A stretch of DNA of 64,000 bases from Terribacillus halophilus. GTDB taxonomy: Bacteria > Bacillota > Bacilli > Bacillales > Amphibacillaceae. The position numbers were made by a program, and so were the translations under genes. Where the stretch lies: NCBI RefSeq assembly GCF_900162685.1, contig NZ_LT727828.1:1294723-1358722 (forward strand), written 5' to 3'. Under the pieces are notes generated by a model. That model had not been told where the DNA came from. It searched no databases and saw only the letters and a program-made list of their open reading frames with translations. Of this stretch, positions 1,191 through 41,295 are shown piece by piece (within the stretch, counting starts at the first letter, position 1; each line of letters starts with the position of its first letter).

Positions 1191-2993
1191 ATGAACAAGA
1201 CGATTACAGATAAACTCGCTGTTCTGCCGCCGCAGCCTGGCTGTTATTTGATGAAAGATAAAAATGGGACAGTCATCTATGTTGGAAAGTCTAAGACACT
1301 CCGCAACCGCGTGCGCTCCTATTTTACTGGTGCACACGACCGCAAAACGCAGCGGCTTGTCACAGAGATTGTCGATTTCGAATACATTGTCACCTCCTCC
1401 GAAATCGAAGCACTCATTTTAGAAATGAATTTAATCAAAAAATACGATCCCAAATATAACATCCTTCTAAAGGATGATAAGACATATCCCTATTTGAAAA
1501 TTACAGCAGAAGAACAGCCGCGCTTGCTGGTGACACGAAAAGTGAAAAAAGACAAAGGCAAATATTTTGGACCATATCCGAACGTAATCGCAGCCAGGGA
1601 AACGAAGAAACTGCTGGACAGGCTTTACCCGCTGCGTAAATGTAATACGATGCCCGACCGCGTTTGCTTGTATTACCATATGCACCAATGCCTTGGTCCT
1701 TGTGTGTATCCTGTCTCCCAAGAAACAAACCGTAATATCGTACAAAATATTACGACCTTCTTAAATGGCGGACACCATCAGATTAAGAAGGATTTGCAGC
1801 AAAGGATGCAGGAAGCTTCGGAAGAACTTGATTTTGAGCGGGCAAAAGAACTGCGAGATCAAATTCAGCATATTGAATCTGTCATGGAGCAGCAGAAGAT
1901 GACATTAACGGATCAGACAGACAGAGATGTGTTCGGCTTTGCTTATGACAAAGGCTGGATGTGTGTGCAAGTATTCTTTATCCGCCAAGGTAAGCTGATT
2001 GAGCGTGATGTCAGCATGTTCCCGTTTTTTGATGAACCAGAAGAGACATTCCTTACGTTTGTCGGACGTTTCTATTTGCATCAAAACCATCTAATGCCAA
2101 AACAGGTACTCGTACCAATTGGCACGAACGTGGAAGGACTGCAGCAGCTATTGGATACCGATGTTGCCATCCCATTCCGAGGTCGGAAAAAAGAGCTAGT
2201 GGAACTTGCTAGAAAGAATGCGAAAATCGCTATTAAAGAAAAATTCTCGCTTATCGAACGTGATGAAGACCGAACAATTAAAGCAGTAGAGTCACTTGGA
2301 GAAAAATTGAATATCGAAACACCGCATCGAATTGAAGCTTTTGACAACTCGAATATCCAAGGAACCGATCCAGTATCAGCGATGATTGTTTTCACCGACG
2401 GTCGCCCGGACAAAAAGGAATACCGAAAGTACAAAGTTCGTGATGTAAAAGGCCCGGATGATTACGATACAATGCGTGAAGTCATCAGACGTCGCTACAA
2501 GCGCGTATTACAGGATAACCTGCCGCTGCCTGACTTAATTGTCATTGACGGTGGTAAGGGTCAAATGAGCGCTGCTTTGGAAGTACTGGAGGACGAGCTT
2601 GGACTGGATATTCCGGTTTGCGGTCTCGCAAAGGATGACAAGCACCGAACGAGTGAACTGCTTTATGGTACACCGCCAGAAGTTGTTAATTTCGATCGAA
2701 ATGCTCAGGATTTTTATCTGGTTCAGCGTATACAGGATGAAGTCCACCGCTTCGCCATCAGCTTCCACCGTCAACTTCGCGGCAAGAGTGCGATCAAATC
2801 CAAGTTGGATGATATCCCTGGCGTAGGAGAGAAGCGCAGAAGATTGCTTATGCGCCATTTCAAATCAGTTCCCGCTATCCAGGAAGCTTCTGTCGAAGAG
2901 ATTAGCAAGCTTGGTATACCAGCACCGACTGCGCAAGTTATATTGAATCACTTGAATAACCCGCAAGATGAACAGGAGAATGAACAAGAATAG
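1191..2993 (+). CDS. uvrC: UvrABC excinuclease subunit C
   Basis: This 600-residue protein has full UvrC architecture. It has an N-terminal GIY-YIG nuclease (about 14-95; PGCYLMKD, then IYVGKSK) for the 3' incision. The UVR motif ([11 protein letters not shown], about 215-228) contacts UvrB. The RNase-H-like nuclease (about 375-540; [12 protein letters not shown]) makes the 5' incision, and a C-terminal helix-hairpin-helix has [18 protein letters not shown]. It acts in nucleotide excision repair with UvrA and UvrB, which are encoded elsewhere. The start follows GAGGGGAAAG. The trxA-uvrC order matches B. subtilis, but lysC does not follow. Confidence 0.97.
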
Positions 2994-3023
2994 ACCAGGC
3001 TTATGATGCTCTGGTCTTTTTTT
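2992..3023 (+). terminator. Terminator of uvrC
   Basis: AGACCAG (2992-2998) and CTGGTCT (3011-3017), separated by 12 bases and followed by a run of T, form a compact intrinsic terminator. It begins inside the uvrC stop codon. It also argues against translation of the next gene starting at the ATG inside the loop (3003). Confidence 0.8.
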
Positions 3024-33479: not shown

Positions 33480-33659
33480 ATGAATAAAGATAAATTTATA
33501 TTGTGTTTTTGGTTAGTTATTATTGCTTTTTTTACAGGAAGAATTGTTAGGTTTATGATGTTGTATTTGGATTTTAATGGCCTTACATGCAATGCATGCA
33601 ACGATTATAATGATTGGGATGTAAACGCTAGAATAAAGTTGACACTTTTTGCTCGATAG
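33480..33659 (+). pseudogene. Small membrane-protein gene interrupted by an IS21 element
   Basis: ATG 33480 opens a frame with a hydrophobic segment (FILCFWLVIIAFF) and a CNAC pair. Its last codons (TLFAR) are supplied by the left end of the IS. Joining the flanks at a shared TTGAC restores a continuous frame ending in RIKLTSTWESSR then stop at 36118, about 62 residues, followed by a terminator. The gene was probably intact before insertion. Function unknown. Confidence 0.5.
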
Positions 33660-33735
33660 GAATTTACACTTTTGCTCAATCAACCTACTACTTTAGTAAA
33701 ATAGATTTGACGTTATTTTACTGGAGGTTAGTATT

Positions 33736-35292
33736 TTGGAGGAGAAGTTAGTGTTATATATTAAGATTAAGGAATTACATAAGAGAAAGTTTAAAGTAGC
33801 ACAAATCTCTAAGGAGCTTAAGATCTCAAGACCGACTGTCTATAAGTATTTAGAAATGACATTCGATGAGGCAAAGGCCTATACTGAACAGCCCTCGAGA
33901 AAGATGAAAAAATTAGATCACTATAAGGACTGGATACTGGCCTGGCTAGAAGAGTATCCCCACCTAAGCAGTGCTCAGATCCATGATTGGCTTTTAGAAA
34001 GATACCCCGACCTAGTGGTCGGCGGAAGTACTGTAAGAACATATGTAAGGGATATTCGAGAAGTCTATCAGATTGAGAAAAAGATGATTGTTCGTCAATA
34101 CGAAGCAGTTCCTGAGCAGCCAATGGGTAAACAACTCCAGGTAGATTGGGGAGAAACAAAACAGAAAAACGTGAACAATAAGGAAATCAAACTATACTTT
34201 ATTGCCTTTGTACTCGCTAACTCACGACACAAATATATGGAATGGCAAGCACGTCCATTCACTACAAGAGATGCGATTCGTTGTCACGAAAACGCATTCC
34301 AGTTCTATGGGGGACGAACAGAAGAAATTGTCTATGATCAGGATCACTTAATCTCAGTAAGTGAAAATGCAGGTCAACTACTTTTAACAGCTGAGTTTCA
34401 AAGCTATGTAAACGAGCGTAAATTCAAAGTTCACCTGTGCCGAAGAGCGGATCCAGAATCTAAAGGTATGATTGAAAATGTAGTGAAATACATAAAAGGC
34501 AACTTCGCTGATAGTCGTGTGTTTAGAGATATAGAAGATTGGAATAAACGGGCAAGGCAGTGGCTCGAGCGTACTGGAAACCACCAGGTTCACCAGACAA
34601 TGAAAAAAAGACCAGCAGAAGTGTTTCTCCTCGAAAAGCAACACTTACAGCCAGTCTCTTCGTTACTTTCATATGAAAGTACCAATAACCAAAGTATAAC
34701 AAGAAGTGTCAGCAAGGACAACACGATCCGGTACAAGTCAAACCGTTACTCTGTCCCACTGGGGACTTATCAAAATATGAGTGAGAATCTTGTGTGGATT
34801 GAAATCAGGGAAGATGATCAGGCCCTGATCATCCGTAAAGAAGCAAATGGTGAAGTGATTGGCGAGCATATGATCAGTTCTGAAAAGGGAAAGCTGATTC
34901 AAAACCGTCACCATACTCGTGATCGCTCCAAAGGTGTGGAAGAGCTTAAACAACGCCTCATTTCCCACTTTGGAGATCAGGTTCGCGCAGCTGCATATTT
35001 AGATGAGATTAGCCAAAGATACCCTAGGTATCGGAGAGATCAATTTACAATTATTCATAAGGTGATCCAACAATACCCAGCTTTAATTGATACTGTTTTA
35101 ACCAAGTGCACGACAGAAAAGCTCTACAATGCGAATGACTTTCGCGATATCGCTCATCACCTTGATGCTTTACGAGATGAGCCGATTGAAGAAGTACAAT
35201 CTTATTACACGAGTCCGCCAAAACATTCTCATATCAAAGCCTCTACCCGTTCTCTAAATGCCTATACTAGCATTTTAGGAGGTAGAGCATGA
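33736..35292 (+). CDS. istA: IS21 transposase IstA
   Basis: The protein has 518 residues. An N-terminal helix-turn-helix (about 17-40; KVAQISKELKISRPTVYKYL) is followed by the retroviral-integrase-type DDE core with Asp in QVDWGE (about 137), a second Asp in IVYDQDH and Glu in KGMIENVVKYIK. The C-terminal region is a DNA-binding beta-barrel. It appears intact and full length. TTG start after TGGAGG. Overlaps istB by 4 bp. Confidence 0.95.
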   Translation: MEEKLVLYIKIKELHKRKFKVAQISKELKISRPTVYKYLEMTFDEAKAYTEQPSRKMKKLDHYKDWILAWLEEYPHLSSAQIHDWLLERYPDLVVGGSTVRTYVRDIREVYQIEKKMIVRQYEAVPEQPMGKQLQVDWGETKQKNVNNKEIKLYFIAFVLANSRHKYMEWQARPFTTRDAIRCHENAFQFYGGRTEEIVYDQDHLISVSENAGQLLLTAEFQSYVNERKFKVHLCRRADPESKGMIENVVKYIKGNFADSRVFRDIEDWNKRARQWLERTGNHQVHQTMKKRPAEVFLLEKQHLQPVSSLLSYESTNNQSITRSVSKDNTIRYKSNRYSVPLGTYQNMSENLVWIEIREDDQALIIRKEANGEVIGEHMISSEKGKLIQNRHHTRDRSKGVEELKQRLISHFGDQVRAAAYLDEISQRYPRYRRDQFTIIHKVIQQYPALIDTVLTKCTTEKLYNANDFRDIAHHLDALRDEPIEEVQSYYTSPPKHSHIKASTRSLNAYTSILGGRA

Positions 35293-36056
35293 TGAATAAG
35301 ACAGTACATGAACTACAAAATCAATTCCGGCAGCTACGCTTAGCAGAAACGGCGGAGGAGCTACCACAGCTTCTTCGCGAAGCTGAAAAAGCATCGTGGA
35401 CTTACTTGGAATTTTTAGAGTCTATCACTCGCTTTGAATTAGCCAAGCGTGAAGCGAAAAGTCTGGAGAAAAGAATGAAATGGGCACGCTTCCCTTTCGT
35501 GAAGTCATTAGACGAGTTTGAGCTGAAAGGCCAAAACATTCTGACGGCTCGCCAGCTCTCTCAACTGCGAGAATTAAGCTGGCTGGAGCAACAGTACAAT
35601 CTCATTCTTTTAGGTCCTCCCGGCATCGGAAAAACGTATATCGCAATTGGTCTTGGATTGGAGGCTGTTTACAGAGGGTTCAATGTTAATTTCGCTACAA
35701 TGGGAGAACTTGTGCAGCTTCTAAAATCAGAAGAATACCTGAACAAATCTAAAGTTCAGCTTAAGAGAATTAGAAATGCCGACCTAGTGATCATTGATGA
35801 TTTAATGTATATGGCCATGGATCAAAGAGAAGCAAACCTATTCTTTCATTTGATTAATCATCTGTACGAACGAAGTTCGATTATCCTGACGTCAAATAAA
35901 AGTCCAGATGAATGGGGCAATTTAATCGGAGACCAAGGTATCACCACAGCGATTTTAGACCGTTTACTTCATCGAGTGGAAGTGATTCATGGAGGCGAGG
36001 AAGAGGAAAGCTATCGGATGAAAAATCGGAAGAGCATCTTTTCAGCAAAAGTGTAA
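35289..36056 (+). CDS. istB: IS21 transposition helper ATPase IstB
   Basis: This 255-residue AAA+ protein of the DnaC/IstB class has Walker A GPPGIGKT (about 109-116), Walker B LVIIDDLMY (about 161) and a sensor segment SIILTSNKSP. It works with IstA in target selection and strand transfer. Translationally coupled to istA by ATGA overlap. Its last codons overlap the inner terminal repeat. Confidence 0.95.
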   Translation: MMNKTVHELQNQFRQLRLAETAEELPQLLREAEKASWTYLEFLESITRFELAKREAKSLEKRMKWARFPFVKSLDEFELKGQNILTARQLSQLRELSWLEQQYNLILLGPPGIGKTYIAIGLGLEAVYRGFNVNFATMGELVQLLKSEEYLNKSKVQLKRIRNADLVIIDDLMYMAMDQREANLFFHLINHLYERSSIILTSNKSPDEWGNLIGDQGITTAILDRLLHRVEVIHGGEEEESYRMKNRKSIFSAKV

Positions 36057-36140
36057 AAAGGAAACGAGCAAAAAGTGTAAAATTCAACTTGACGTCTACA
36101 TGGGAAAGTAGTAGGTAGTAATAGGGAATGTCTGAATTAT

Positions 36141-36192
36141 AAAAAAGATGAGGCAGGTGTCTCCGAACTTACGGAAATACCTGCCTCTTTAA
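36141..36192. terminator. Bidirectional terminator
   Basis: GAGGCAGGTGTCTCCG pairs with CGGAAATACCTGCCTC (wobbles in the middle), with A-rich and T-rich flanks. It would end the interrupted plus-strand gene and the minus-strand rap-phr operon. Confidence 0.85.
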
Positions 36193-36225: not shown

Positions 36226-36366
36226 TTATTTGCTTATATTTAGTGAAAGTATTATAGTCCCAAGATCACCTTTTTTTTCTGCTGTCTTGTTATCGTTTGC
36301 ATATCCAGCCATGCCGCTTAGAATGATCGTTACTACTAGTATCAGCGAGAAAACAACTTTCTTCAT
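36226..36366 (-). CDS. phr: Phr-type pheromone precursor
   Basis: This 46-residue peptide is too short for routine gene calling. It has an N-terminal signal peptide (MKKVVFSLILVVTIILSGMA, then GYA) and a hydrophilic C-terminal part ending GDLGTIILSLNISK. Strong SD AAAGGAGGG. It begins 15 bp after the rap stop on the same strand, the classic rap-phr cassette. Phr peptides are exported, cleaved to 5-7 residues, re-imported by Opp and inhibit the cognate Rap. The mature sequence cannot be set from sequence alone. Confidence 0.8.
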   Translation of the reverse strand: MKKVVFSLILVVTIILSGMAGYANDNKTAEKKGDLGTIILSLNISK

Positions 36367-36381
36367 TATATACCCTCCTTT

Positions 36382-37434
36382 TTAGATAGTAGCTAAAAGA
36401 TAGTATCTTGTTGCCAGCTCGAATTGCTTCGTTTCAGTATAATGCCAGGCTAGTTCTTTTGAATAGAGTCTAACATTATACAAATCGTTTATTCCTCTAA
36501 AATATTCTATACCTTCTTGCCATACACTTTCATAGTTCACCTTATCCTCATATTTCTTATGCAGCATGGAAAATTCCCACTTCATTGTTAAATCATCGTT
36601 ATCCATGCTTTTCTGGAAACCTTCAGAATAAACTTCTATAGCTTTTGAAGACTGATTAGTTTTCCAATAGGAATCAGCTAATAAGTATAAAATCTTCAAA
36701 TGGATGCGTTCTTGTCTATTCTTACGTGCTTCTTCCAGATAACGAATAGCTGTTTCCGGCAATTTGCGTTCCACATACAGAAGTCCAAGGTTGAGTTTAG
36801 TAGTGGTTATAAAGTTGTGATTATTTATATTTTTGTAAGATGCTAAAGCTCTATGAAGATGTTCTTCCGCCATTTCAAAATTATGAAGATCCATGTAATT
36901 CATCCCTTGCAGCATTTCTGCCCGGGCAAGAAGAAACTCAAATGTTTTATATGGTTTTAGGGATTCTATTGCTCTTTCTGCATGTAAAGCAGATAAAGTA
37001 GTTATATCAAGAAAATAATAAGTCATGGCTTTACGAAGGTGAAATTCACCTATTTCTACTGGGTCATTTAATTGATTCAGATATTTTTCAGCCTTCTCAA
37101 AGCAGTTAAGAGCTTCTTGGTAATGTTTTTCGTCATAGAATTGTATTCCTTCTGCTAGGTGTAGATAATGTCTGTGGGTATCCTTAAAGTGGACTAGGTG
37201 CTTTTTAGCATTGTCAATCGCAGCAGCACTATTCACGAGGTGTTTTTGCATTAGGTAGAAGCGACTTTCTAACAGTAAAAATTTTATAAGAGTATCTATA
37301 CTGAAGTCATCGGAAAAGCCTTTTAAGCGGTCGTGAATACTGACTGCCGCTTCTCTTTTATCAAGACGAATACTGATCGACCAATTATCCAATTCAGCCG
37401 AAATATTGACTTGATTATATATATTCTGTCCCAT
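36382..37434 (-). CDS. Rap-family aspartyl-phosphate phosphatase or Rap-like quorum sensor
   Basis: This 350-residue protein has the length and architecture of Rap proteins: an N-terminal helical bundle (about 1-70) and a series of TPR repeats (about 90-345; YLHLAEGIQFYDEKHYQEAL, HLRKAMTYYFLDIT, TKLNLGLLYVERKLPETAI). Rap proteins dephosphorylate Spo0F or block response regulators such as ComA; Phr peptides relieve this. The target cannot be told. SD AAAGGAGG. The partner phr gene is directly downstream. Confidence 0.88.
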   Translation of the reverse strand: MGQNIYNQVNISAELDNWSISIRLDKREAAVSIHDRLKGFSDDFSIDTLIKFLLLESRFYLMQKHLVNSAAAIDNAKKHLVHFKDTHRHYLHLAEGIQFYDEKHYQEALNCFEKAEKYLNQLNDPVEIGEFHLRKAMTYYFLDITTLSALHAERAIESLKPYKTFEFLLARAEMLQGMNYMDLHNFEMAEEHLHRALASYKNINNHNFITTTKLNLGLLYVERKLPETAIRYLEEARKNRQERIHLKILYLLADSYWKTNQSSKAIEVYSEGFQKSMDNDDLTMKWEFSMLHKKYEDKVNYESVWQEGIEYFRGINDLYNVRLYSKELAWHYTETKQFELATRYYLLATI

Positions 37435-37795
37435 GGAGCAAACCTCCTTTAAAGTTTTTATCTATAAATCAATCTTACCATTTTCTTGAAACTGAATGTA
37501 TTGGGAAATTTTGTAGTTTAGAGTCTATTAAAACAAAGATATTGAAGATGAGGTTTCCTACTCTATTGCACGTCGGTAAACATGTAGTCTTAGAAAGAGA
37601 AAGAAACAAAGGAAAAGAGCAACTCATCATATAAAAAGTGAATAAGCTGCTCTTGTTTCGGTAGACTATTTTGTCTTCAAAACATTATATAAGAATCTTC
37701 AAGATATAAGTTAACCTTATTATTCCTAATTTCCGCAGCTTATTAAGGGTATATGTAACCTAAGCAGTTGGAGTAGGGAAAGGAGCTTTTGTCTT
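37435..37795. other. Gene-free stretch upstream of rap
   Basis: These 361 bp lie between divergent genes. An AAGAGCA/TGCTCTT inverted repeat near 37614-37658 is visible. No gene or clear promoter was identified. Confidence 0.4.
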
Positions 37796-38186: not shown

Positions 38187-39167
38187 TTAATTAGGCCCAA
38201 CCACTGCATGTGGTACATAAGGCTCTTCAAGAAATGCAATATCATCAGTTGTGAGCTTAACAGAAAGAGAACCTACAGCATCTTCAAGGTGAGATATCTT
38301 TGTAGCGCCTATCACTGGAGCTGTTACTGTTTCTTTCGATAGTAACCAGGCAAGTGCGACATGGATACGAGGGACACCGTGTCTTTCTGCGACTGCGGCT
38401 ACTCGTTCTACAACCAATCGGTCGGCATCAGCGGTTGCATCGTATTTAGATTTTTGAATCTGATCTGTCTCTGATCGAAGCGTTGTTTCTGACCAGTCGC
38501 GTGTCAATCTTCCTGATGCTAGCGGGCTATAAGGTGTAATCCCGATTTTTTCCTCTTTACAGAGTGGGATCATTTCCCGCTCTTCTTCACGGTAAATGAG
38601 GTTGTAGTGATTCTGCATCGACACAAAGCGAGTCCAATTATTTTTGTCGGCTACGTGAAGCGCTTTTTGAAATTGCCAAGCATACATCGCAGAGGCGCCG
38701 ATGTACCTTGCCTTCCCGGATTTTACCACATCATGCAAGGTTTCCATCGTTTCTTCAATTGGTGTGTTATAGTCCCAGCGATGAATAATATAAAGGTCTA
38801 CATAGTCTGTCCCCAGTCTTGTCAGGCTATTATCAATTTCACTCATAATAGCCTTACGAGAAAGCCCCGCACCGTTTGGACCTTCATGCATACGGCCATG
38901 CACTTTTGTTGCTAGCACAACTTCATCTCGATTGGCATAGTCTTTTAGAGCGCGTCCTAGATATTCTTCGCTCGTTCCTGTTGAATACACATTGGCGGTA
39001 TCAAAAAAGTTTATGCCAAGGTCAAGCGCCCGTTTTATGATAGAGCGACTCTTATCTTCATCAAGCACCCATTTGTGTATCCACTTTTCTGCATCTCCAA
39101 AACTCATGCAGCCAAGACAAATTCTAGATACGTCCAAACCTGTATTGCCCAGTTTTACATATTCCAT
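38187..39167 (-). CDS. Aldo/keto reductase (broad-specificity)
   Basis: This 326-residue TIM-barrel AKR has the catalytic tetrad: Asp and Tyr in FFDTANVYSTG (about 54-60), Lys in LATKVHG (about 87) and His in YIIHRWD (about 130). The C-terminal NADPH-binding VIGATKISHLEDAV is present. It resembles YrpG/GSP69-like general-stress reductases. Its gene is divergent from an AraC regulator, which may control it. SD GGGAGG. Confidence 0.88.
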   Translation of the reverse strand: MEYVKLGNTGLDVSRICLGCMSFGDAEKWIHKWVLDEDKSRSIIKRALDLGINFFDTANVYSTGTSEEYLGRALKDYANRDEVVLATKVHGRMHEGPNGAGLSRKAIMSEIDNSLTRLGTDYVDLYIIHRWDYNTPIEETMETLHDVVKSGKARYIGASAMYAWQFQKALHVADKNNWTRFVSMQNHYNLIYREEEREMIPLCKEEKIGITPYSPLASGRLTRDWSETTLRSETDQIQKSKYDATADADRLVVERVAAVAERHGVPRIHVALAWLLSKETVTAPVIGATKISHLEDAVGSLSVKLTTDDIAFLEEPYVPHAVVGPN

Positions 39168-39339: not shown

Positions 39340-40233
39340 ATGTCTGAGGAAATAGAGAAGAGGTACGAACTAAGCAAGCTCATACAAAGAAACACAGAAC
39401 CGGATGGTGTGCATCCTACTTCTATCCCATCACTATTTCTCATACGTGAGTCTGCAATTAGTGAACCTGTTGCCAGAGTGAACGAGACTTCCTTTTGTAT
39501 TATTGTCCAAGGTGAAAAAGAAGTATGGCTGGGGGAGGAATGTTATCAATATGGACCTGGCAATTATATTGTGGCATCTGTGGAACTGCCGGTAACCGGT
39601 CAAGTTATCTCAGCTACATCACAATCTCCTTATTTAGCACTCAAACTTGAATTTACCCCAAAGGAAATTTTAGATGCTCTGCATGAGACCGGAATACAAG
39701 CGGGAAAGAGGAGACACACAAAACGAGCGATGTTTATAGGGGAAGCAAGTTCTTCATTGTTAGATGCAGTAGTTCGTTTAGCCGCTTTGTTGGACACGCC
39801 AAAACATATTCCAGTTTTTGCATCACTATATAAGAGAGAAATACTGTATTGGGTTCTTCAAGGTCCAAACGGTGAAGCACTGCAGCAAATGGCCGTTGAA
39901 GGAAGCAATGCCATGCGTATTAGAAATGTAATTGAAACAATCATCCTTGATTTTGAGAAGACTTTTCGGATAGAAGAATTAGCAGAAAGAGCAAATATGA
40001 GCGTCTCTTCTCTGCACCGCCATTTTAAAGAGGTAACTGCTATGAGTCCAATTCAGTTCCAAAAGCAGCTGCGGTTGCAGGAAGCAAGACGATTATTATT
40101 AGCGGAGTTATCTGACGTAGCAGAAGTCGCTTACCGAGTGGGATACGAGAGCCATCCCCAATTCACACGAGAATATACTCGTATGTTTGGTTCTTCGCCC
40201 AGAGCGGACATGAATCGACTCAAGAAGATTTAA
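39340..40233 (+). CDS. AraC-family regulator with AraC_N domain (copy 1)
   Basis: This 297-residue protein has an N-terminal AraC-type cupin-like domain (about 20-175; CIIVQGEKEVWLGEECYQYGPGNYIV) and two C-terminal helix-turn-helix motifs (about 205-290; RIEELAERANMSVSSLHRHFK and VAYRVGYESHPQF). Close paralogue of the gene at 40393-41295. Divergent from the aldo/keto reductase, its likely target. SD AAGGAG. Confidence 0.9.
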   Translation: MSEEIEKRYELSKLIQRNTEPDGVHPTSIPSLFLIRESAISEPVARVNETSFCIIVQGEKEVWLGEECYQYGPGNYIVASVELPVTGQVISATSQSPYLALKLEFTPKEILDALHETGIQAGKRRHTKRAMFIGEASSSLLDAVVRLAALLDTPKHIPVFASLYKREILYWVLQGPNGEALQQMAVEGSNAMRIRNVIETIILDFEKTFRIEELAERANMSVSSLHRHFKEVTAMSPIQFQKQLRLQEARRLLLAELSDVAEVAYRVGYESHPQFTREYTRMFGSSPRADMNRLKKI

Positions 40234-40392: not shown

Positions 40393-41295
40393 TCACGCTT
40401 TCAAGGTGTCATCGTAACTTTCTTTCATCTTCTTGATATCTTGTATTGGAGGCAACCCGAACATACGGGCATACTCTCGGCTGAATTGAGACGGGCTTTC
40501 GTATCCAACTTGAAAGGCGGCATCCGTTGCATCTGTTGATTCTGTTAATAACAGGCGACGTGCTTCTTGCAGTCGTAATTGTTTTTGGAACTGGAGGGGA
40601 CTCATCGCTGTCACTTCTTTAAAGTTTCGATGCAGGGAAGAAACGCTCATATTAGCTATCTCGGCGAGTTCCTCCATACGAAACGTGCGTTTGAAGTTAT
40701 CCATAATAAACGCAATGGCCTCTTTTACACGTGAAGTGTAGCTGCCCTTTAGAGCGATTTGTTTCAATGCATCACCATGTTGATCAATAAGAACTCTGTA
40801 TAAAATTTCTTTCGTGATTAGAGGAGCGAGAATGGGTATATCATTCGGACTGTCGACTAAGCGAACTAATCTTGTGACCGAATCCATTAATGTTAGGTTT
40901 AAATTGCTGACGAACATGGCTCTGTTTAAATCTCTTTTCGGTTTCGCATTGAGGCTTGTTTCTTGTAAGATCTCTAAAACATCACTTGGCGTAAATTCCA
41001 GTTTTAGCGAAAGGTAAGGTTTTTCCATCGTGGCATGTGTTACTTGCCCTGTAATGGGCAAGTCAACAGATGACACGAAGTAATTCGCCGGCCCGTAAGT
41101 AAATCTTTCTTCTGCAAGAAGAACTTGCTTCTCGCCTTGAACCACTATACATAAAGAAGGATTCTGTATGCCGTATCTTGGCTCCGTTACATCTGAATAA
41201 CGTGAAAAAAATAAGGATGGCACATTGCTGGGGTAGGTTCCATCATTTCTAGTGTACCTTTCGATCAGTTCGATGATCTCTTTATGCTGCTTCAC
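40393..41295 (-). CDS. AraC-family regulator with AraC_N domain (copy 2)
   Basis: This 300-residue protein is collinear with the copy at 39340: CIVVQGEKQVLLAEERFTYGPANYFV, RMEELAEIANMSVSSLHRNFKEV, AMSPLQFQKQLRLQEARRLLL. The two HTH regions are nearly identical over long runs, whereas the N-terminal domains differ more, implying related operators but different effectors. GTG start, 8 bases after GGAGG. Divergent from the Crh-like gene. Confidence 0.9.
   Translation of the reverse strand: MKQHKEIIELIERYTRNDGTYPSNVPSLFFSRYSDVTEPRYGIQNPSLCIVVQGEKQVLLAEERFTYGPANYFVSSVDLPITGQVTHATMEKPYLSLKLEFTPSDVLEILQETSLNAKPKRDLNRAMFVSNLNLTLMDSVTRLVRLVDSPNDIPILAPLITKEILYRVLIDQHGDALKQIALKGSYTSRVKEAIAFIMDNFKRTFRMEELAEIANMSVSSLHRNFKEVTAMSPLQFQKQLRLQEARRLLLTESTDATDAAFQVGYESPSQFSREYARMFGLPPIQDIKKMKESYDDTLKA

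Follow-up and report, generated by a model that had tools for sequence, protein, structure and literature searches.

A genus-specific Rap-Phr cassette of Terribacillus with a probable internal pheromone core and a probably non-textbook target

Where in its small precursor does a peptide pheromone lie, and on what does its receptor act? These questions are raised by two adjacent reverse-strand genes in a 64,000-nucleotide stretch of Terribacillus halophilus DNA (contig NZ_LT727828.1, positions 1,294,723 to 1,358,722; hereafter the window). An earlier note, made from the letters of this stretch, had described the genes as a Rap-Phr quorum-sensing cassette. The cassette is genuine and genus-specific, and it is ordinary in kind. 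We consider it likely that it is a two-gene quorum-sensing system whose signal comes from an internal core of the Phr peptide and whose Rap acts on a partner other than a Spo0F dephosphorylated in the manner of RapH. The features of the two genes are as follows.

36382..37434, reverse strand: rap, starting with ATG and encoding a 350-residue tetratricopeptide repeat (TPR) receptor of the Rap family (open reading frame, Pfam, structure comparison)
37443..37450, reverse strand: Shine-Dalgarno site AAAGGAGG of rap, 8 nt before the gene (read directly)
36226..36366, reverse strand: phr, starting with ATG, a putative 46-residue pre-pro-pheromone gene (open reading frame and homology)
36373..36378, reverse strand: Shine-Dalgarno site GGAGGG of phr, 6 nt before the gene (read directly)
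36298..36366, reverse strand: probable signal peptide, residues 1-23 (cleavage site placed by eye)
36256..36279, reverse strand: predicted pheromone core, residues 30-37, EKKGDLGT (conservation and the second fused AlphaFold run)
36229..36255, reverse strand: variable C-terminal tail, residues 38-46, IILSLNISK (sequence comparison)

The open reading frame (ORF) positions and Shine-Dalgarno sites agree with the earlier description of a 350-residue Rap followed 15 bp later by a 46-residue peptide gene, and the C-terminal end of the peptide, GDLGTIILSLNISK, was read identically. The 15 bp extend from the rap stop to the phr start, and both genes share one frame. Pfam recognized only TPR repeats in the 350-residue protein. 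Against solved structures, its sequence matched RapH, Rap3T and RapF, and a seven-member profile recovered Rap3T (E = 1.6e-32), RapH (E = 8.2e-30) and also NprR. The Rap part of the AlphaFold model mostly exceeded a predicted local distance difference test score (pLDDT) of 85, and its fold was nearest to Rap3T, RapJ-PhrC, RapF-PhrF and apo RapI, which were tied at Z scores of 33-34 (root mean square deviation of 4.1-4.9 over about 350 residues). The model shows the architecture of Rap proteins, which have about 350-380 residues: a three-helix N-terminal bundle, TPR repeats and no helix-turn-helix (HTH).

The ten genomes of the genus, the window included, encode 25 full-length Raps of one clade (at least 53% identity; two to four per genome), from which a 177-residue T. 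halophilus fragment (L059) was excluded. An intact homologous phr of 45-49 residues lies 12-16 bp downstream of 24 of the 25; for L013 the intact phr was found on reading the DNA, and the sole exception, L026/L050 of T. halophilus, has an intact rap and only a phr remnant. Among the pheromone-holding residues of RapF (PMC3601957), Asn227 corresponds to Asn215 (Asn in all 59 alignment rows, where some loci appear twice), Asp194 to Asp182 (Asp or Glu in 25/25 of the clade), Gln183 to Arg171 (Arg in 24/25, His in L013) and Tyr152 to Tyr140. The anchors Arg223, Gln263 and Asp338 of RapF are not kept, being Thr, Lys and Leu in the window Rap. The TPR fold, the matches to RapH, Rap3T and RapF, the kept anchor Asn and the adjacent small gene with a secretion signal bear out the identification made in the earlier note; its fold, its gene order and its anchor residues place the cassette among the Rap-Phr systems.

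A pheromone is expected to be constant among orthologues and different between paralogues. Past the signal peptide, the most conserved positions of Phr were Gly36, Asp34 and Lys31, and the C-terminus was not among them. When the Raps were clustered automatically at 80% identity (five clusters holding 16 of the 24 complete pairs), variation within clusters affected 15 of 47 tail positions and none of 40 core positions. With restriction to columns that differ between clusters, the counts were 0/30 and 15/47 (p = 2.5e-4), and other Rap identity cut-offs gave p = 2.1e-4 (75%), p = 1.1e-3 (85%) and p = 0.033 (70%). Between clusters, the core sequence changes. A hand-made grouping, which took in additional phr copies that lack a full rap and omitted L028 and L051, gave 3/80 varying positions in the core and 30/94 in the tail, with twelve core forms such as EKKGDLGT, EKPTDLGS, SKKGDFGS and SNKNDPGG. 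Among nine further phr copies, the pattern x-[KN]-x-[GTN]-[DE]-x-G is present in eight, several of which have dissimilar tails; two of the eight (L070 and L073) look degraded, and the ninth (L072), beside a distant Rap, is without the pattern. Lys31 or Lys32 occurs in 24/24 pairs; whether it stands at position 2, where B. subtilis-type penta- and hexapeptides carry a basic residue, depends on where the ends of the mature peptide lie. This conservation pattern suggests that the signal is likely an internal piece of Phr around EKKGDLGT, residues 30-37.

Structure prediction was applied to a fused Rap-G-KGGYI-Phr chain, in which the rap stop was read as Gly. In the second of two AlphaFold runs (15 Phr rows and six fewer Rap rows), only residues 386-393, which are Phr residues 30-37, reached pLDDT 50 past residue 351; this modest peak, seen in one of two runs, agrees with the core. 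Several points weigh against the proposed reading. In the first run (7 Phr rows), the Phr part stayed below pLDDT 50 save at residues 368-371, in the signal peptide, and the raised values of the second run may only reflect conservation. Covariation between Phr positions and the Rap groove was not significant (lowest one-sided p = 0.107) among the 19 of 23 pairs that remained after removal of near-copies, and the neat Phe35/Val175 match traces to a single event on the tree. The boundaries of the core were chosen once the alignment had been viewed, which flatters the within-cluster test, a bias that the restriction to between-cluster columns reduces. The conserved core could be a protease site instead of a signal, and, read as GDLGT, it has Asp where Phr peptides of B. 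subtilis and the B. cereus group have a basic residue. On the receptor side, apo NprR reached Z = 31.8, so that Rap and NprR are not cleanly separated by fold.

A Rap-Phr pair with its mature signal at the C-terminal end (e.g. SLNISK), the internal core being a pro-region or protease site, would follow the location of the signal in most B. subtilis Phr peptides; positions 39-44 keep [IV]-[FL]-S-L-N-[IL] in many paralogues, and the first AlphaFold run gave the core no preference. However, nearly identical Raps are accompanied by tails of differing sequence and length (LLKDK, LFKDK, LLEILDK, LLEIPDK) while the core stays constant, and some members have quite unlike tails (TPKTFSK, LSIRF). We consider this arrangement unlikely. 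The earlier view that the pheromone looks new holds in that it does not resemble the B. subtilis pentapeptides; its placement at the C-terminus is probably wrong, the conserved block being internal at residues 30-37.

As to the target, RapH Gln47, which Spo0F dephosphorylation requires (PMC3035606), corresponds to Thr48. Whatever the register, the window loop SDDFSIDTL offers neither Gln nor Glu. Leu49 is the same residue as its RapH counterpart, Leu50, whereas RapH Phe58 is replaced by Ser57. Because the Gln47 counterpart and Phe58 are gone, RapH-type action on Spo0F appears unlikely. RapF Phe24, Pro27 and Asp28, important for the binding of ComA (PMC3246441), correspond to Asp25, Glu28 and Ala29, with RapF Leu67 and Gln78 outside the mapping. 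ComX was found in none of the ten genus genomes at E up to 0.1, a weak negative, as the B. subtilis match itself falls below the model cut-off. The intracellular target is thus, judging from these residues, probably not the textbook one. That the target may be new, as had been suggested, is plausible in view of the missing phosphatase Gln and the three missing ComA contacts.

For a classical sporulation Rap, which would act on Spo0F by dephosphorylation or blocking and be relieved by Phr, the genome has the components: Spo0A is present (as in 10/10 genus genomes) and a Spo0F-like receiver lies between pyrG and fbaA, both recognized by eye. Steric blocking of Spo0F is possible, RapH Q47N being described in PMC3035606 as blocking Spo0F without catalysis; the conserved Leu49 also fits, and a one-residue shift would restore Gln or Glu in some paralogues (Gln in L002, DTQTL; Glu in others). 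Set against this are the replacements at Gln47 and Phe58, the loop free of Gln and Glu, and a Pro at the Spo0F Tyr13 position in 10/10 genus genomes, although the last says little about coevolution; Tyr occurred there in none of 23 Spo0F sequences read. A classical sporulation role is, in our judgement, improbable, and a partner other than a RapH-type Spo0F substrate is preferred.

The small ORF itself was also assessed. The 46-codon ORF is not a chance one, because small homologues occupy the same place at 24/25 loci. Among three orthologues, similarity stops at the phr stop codon. In comparison with the two nearest named species, the ratio of nonsynonymous to synonymous change (omega) was 0.23 and 0.35 for phr and 0.20 and 0.12 for rap, which indicates that purifying selection acts on phr. 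The signal sequence, called ideal in the earlier note, is recognizable by inspection (MKK, a hydrophobic stretch, then G-Y-A). No family model passed its cut-off with the peptide, the best NCBIfam pheromone match being PhrK (13.4 bits, with the cut-off at 35; E = 0.069). That the product is a small toxin- or regulator-like membrane peptide merely located behind rap, and no pheromone, is very improbable: about 20 of its residues form a dominant hydrophobic stretch, no family model recognizes it and certain phr copies lack an adjoining intact rap, but it is paired with Rap at nearly every clade locus, its hydrophilic core is under selection and known Rap-Phr pairs are defined by the same arrangement.

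The Rap is confined to the genus within the genomes searched. At E ≤ 1e-60, 10 of 61 genomes matched it, namely the ten genomes of the genus, and at E ≤ 1e-25 the same ten matched among 159 genomes of the family, with such a Rap in none of the 149 others. The window genome gave nine matches, one of them HTH-bearing and NprR-like by eye. Twenty-three named relatives comprised Terribacillus loci and one genome titled Virgibacillus sp. 7505; the named relatives of the Rap included T. aidingensis (88% identity), T. halophilus (83%) and T. saccharophilus. A sister Rap clade at 42-44% identity has one member in each of the ten genomes (L003, L032-L036, L053-L058), and no phr-profile match was found beside it in any of them. 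The sister-clade Rap may dephosphorylate Spo0F and respond to other Phr signals. Gln is kept in its helix 2-3 loop in all rows read, which cover nine of the ten genomes. Of 397 genomes across the order, 13 gave Phr relatives. Four of the 13 belong to the genus; in the remaining nine, the match covers mainly the signal-peptide part and lies inside open frames of at least 112 residues. No description of Rap-Phr in Terribacillus was found in the literature searched, which covered the main text of RRNPP papers; a Halobacillus genome paper that contains both 'Terribacillus' and 'Phr' (PMC12167742) lay outside that reading.

The T. aidingensis and T. halophilus orthologues have different neighbours, as seen by eye in ORF translations; therefore, as far as gene context tells, the cassette moves, by whatever route. 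For a prophage or plasmid origin, no relative was confirmed in viral contigs. Rap matches occurred in 157 plasmid and 28 phage records, all below 60% identity, and the 15 plasmid and 10 phage matches listed had about 22-27% identity; the plasmid collection contained no match to the window Phr or to B. thuringiensis PhrI1. Copies of phr also occur duplicated, solitary or without a rap. Tandem phr genes with the different cores SNKNDPGG and EKQGDPGG were seen at L066 and L067, one pair behind a single intact Rap; the sequence read around the other contained no intact rap. Another type of Phr in the genus (L005, L072, L118) ends in LTDF or LTDL and lies behind more distant Raps, once on plasmid pDMT04 (L118), where it is annotated as hypothetical. 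At L009 (G000:C12:163500-168000; 2805-3005 on the reverse complement), a 66-residue propeptide contains LDLQPGAF three times; this apparent multi-copy pheromone lies behind a same-genome TPR regulator with an HTH-like N-terminus, NprR-like by eye.

The surroundings of the two genes contain the following further features.

37472..37480, reverse strand: TGGTAAGAT, putative extended -10-like box upstream of rap (by eye)
36141..36187, reverse strand: intrinsic-terminator-like hairpin (36150-36187) and six-U run (36141-36146) (folding energy and sequence)
33619..36101, forward strand: IS21-family element with istA (33736-35292) and istB (35289-36056), adjoining the cassette and outside it

A counterpart of the -10-like box, TGGTAAAAT, is similarly positioned in the orthologues of T. 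aidingensis and T. halophilus (by eye). The box is absent from the list of the promoter scan, which was uninformative (7 sites against 5.6 expected). For a sigma-H-like phr promoter inside rap, a trait of B. subtilis-type Phr, the best window site had 11/13 matches, equalled by 74 of 100 shuffles, and across 17 cassettes the fewest equally good shuffles were 5/100 (L028). The hairpin 3′ of phr has a folding energy of -26.7 kcal/mol (z = -6.2) and is followed by the run of six U; it is missing from the list of a simple terminator scan. The IS21-family element is bounded by inverted-repeat arms (74% complementary), and a further repeat extends to 36138. Truncation of phr by this element was rejected, as the arms stop at 36101 and the further repeat at 36138, with the terminator and phr beyond. 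Elsewhere in the window, two AraC-type regulator genes (39340-40233 and 40393-41295) lie beside an aldo/keto reductase gene (38187-39167).

The following mechanism is proposed. From their spacing and the single terminator behind both, rap and phr would be read together. The Phr precursor would be secreted, its signal peptide removed and the remainder cut back at both ends to leave a short signal out of EKKGDLGT, most likely of 5-8 residues containing GDLG. The signal would build up with cell density and be re-imported by an oligopeptide permease; the genome encodes six permease-type binding proteins (SBP_bac_5). Inside the cell, it may bind in the concave groove formed by the TPR repeats of its own Rap, near Asn215, Asp182 and Arg171, and close the groove, and the closed Rap would release the partner it inhibits, probably a response regulator or transcription factor rather than a Spo0F dephosphorylated as by RapH. 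By this pair, the bacterium probably senses its own density.

More tentatively, and with slightly less than even confidence, Terribacillus may have evolved a multi-channel code of its own, in which a genus-specific set of paralogous Rap-Phr pairs with distinct internal x-K-x-x-[DE]-x-G-x pheromones acts on a target other than ComA and other than a Spo0F dephosphorylated through a catalytic Gln. In this genus, a dozen distinct predicted pheromone cores, the majority with their cognate receptors, form a natural set for studying how pheromone specificity diverges after duplication. Reading the signal from the C-terminus, as is usual in genome scans, may point to an incorrect peptide. Should the target prove new, this Rap would join the few known to act on something besides Spo0F or ComA.

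Like RapF-PhrF, RapJ-PhrC and RapH-PhrH of B. subtilis, the window system has a TPR receptor without HTH and a phr directly downstream; the anchor Asn and Asp are kept, and the fold matches RapF-PhrF and RapJ-PhrC at Z of about 33.5. It differs from them in sequence (19-22% identity in structure comparison) and has no C-terminal pentapeptide with Arg or Lys at position 2, no equivalent of Gln47, of the ComA contacts Phe24, Pro27 and Asp28 or of the RapF anchors Arg223, Gln263 and Asp338, and, in the window, no sigma-H-like site for phr that stands out from shuffled sequence. In the B. cereus group, PMC4147580 gives GHTGG for BXA0205Phr and a repeated GDTGG for B. thuringiensis PhrI1. These share the pattern G-[DH]-x-G-[GST] with Terribacillus copies that include GDPGG and GDTGG, whereas the peptides are C-terminal or tandem there and the window core is single and internal, the likeness being one of pattern alone. 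In NprR-NprX, a seven-residue signal, SKPDIVG, was shown by mass spectrometry (PMC5641580) and lies inside the C-terminal region, with Lys at position 2 and Gly at position 7 as in EKKGDLG; in contrast, NprR binds DNA as a regulator and the Asp is at another position, and the likeness may be chance. Precedents for an internal mature peptide are NprX, in PMC4147580, and phrH and phrE, in a supplementary-figure legend of PMC5199041. The kind of system, Rap-Phr, is known; the pheromone prediction is corrected here, and the target may differ from the textbook ones.
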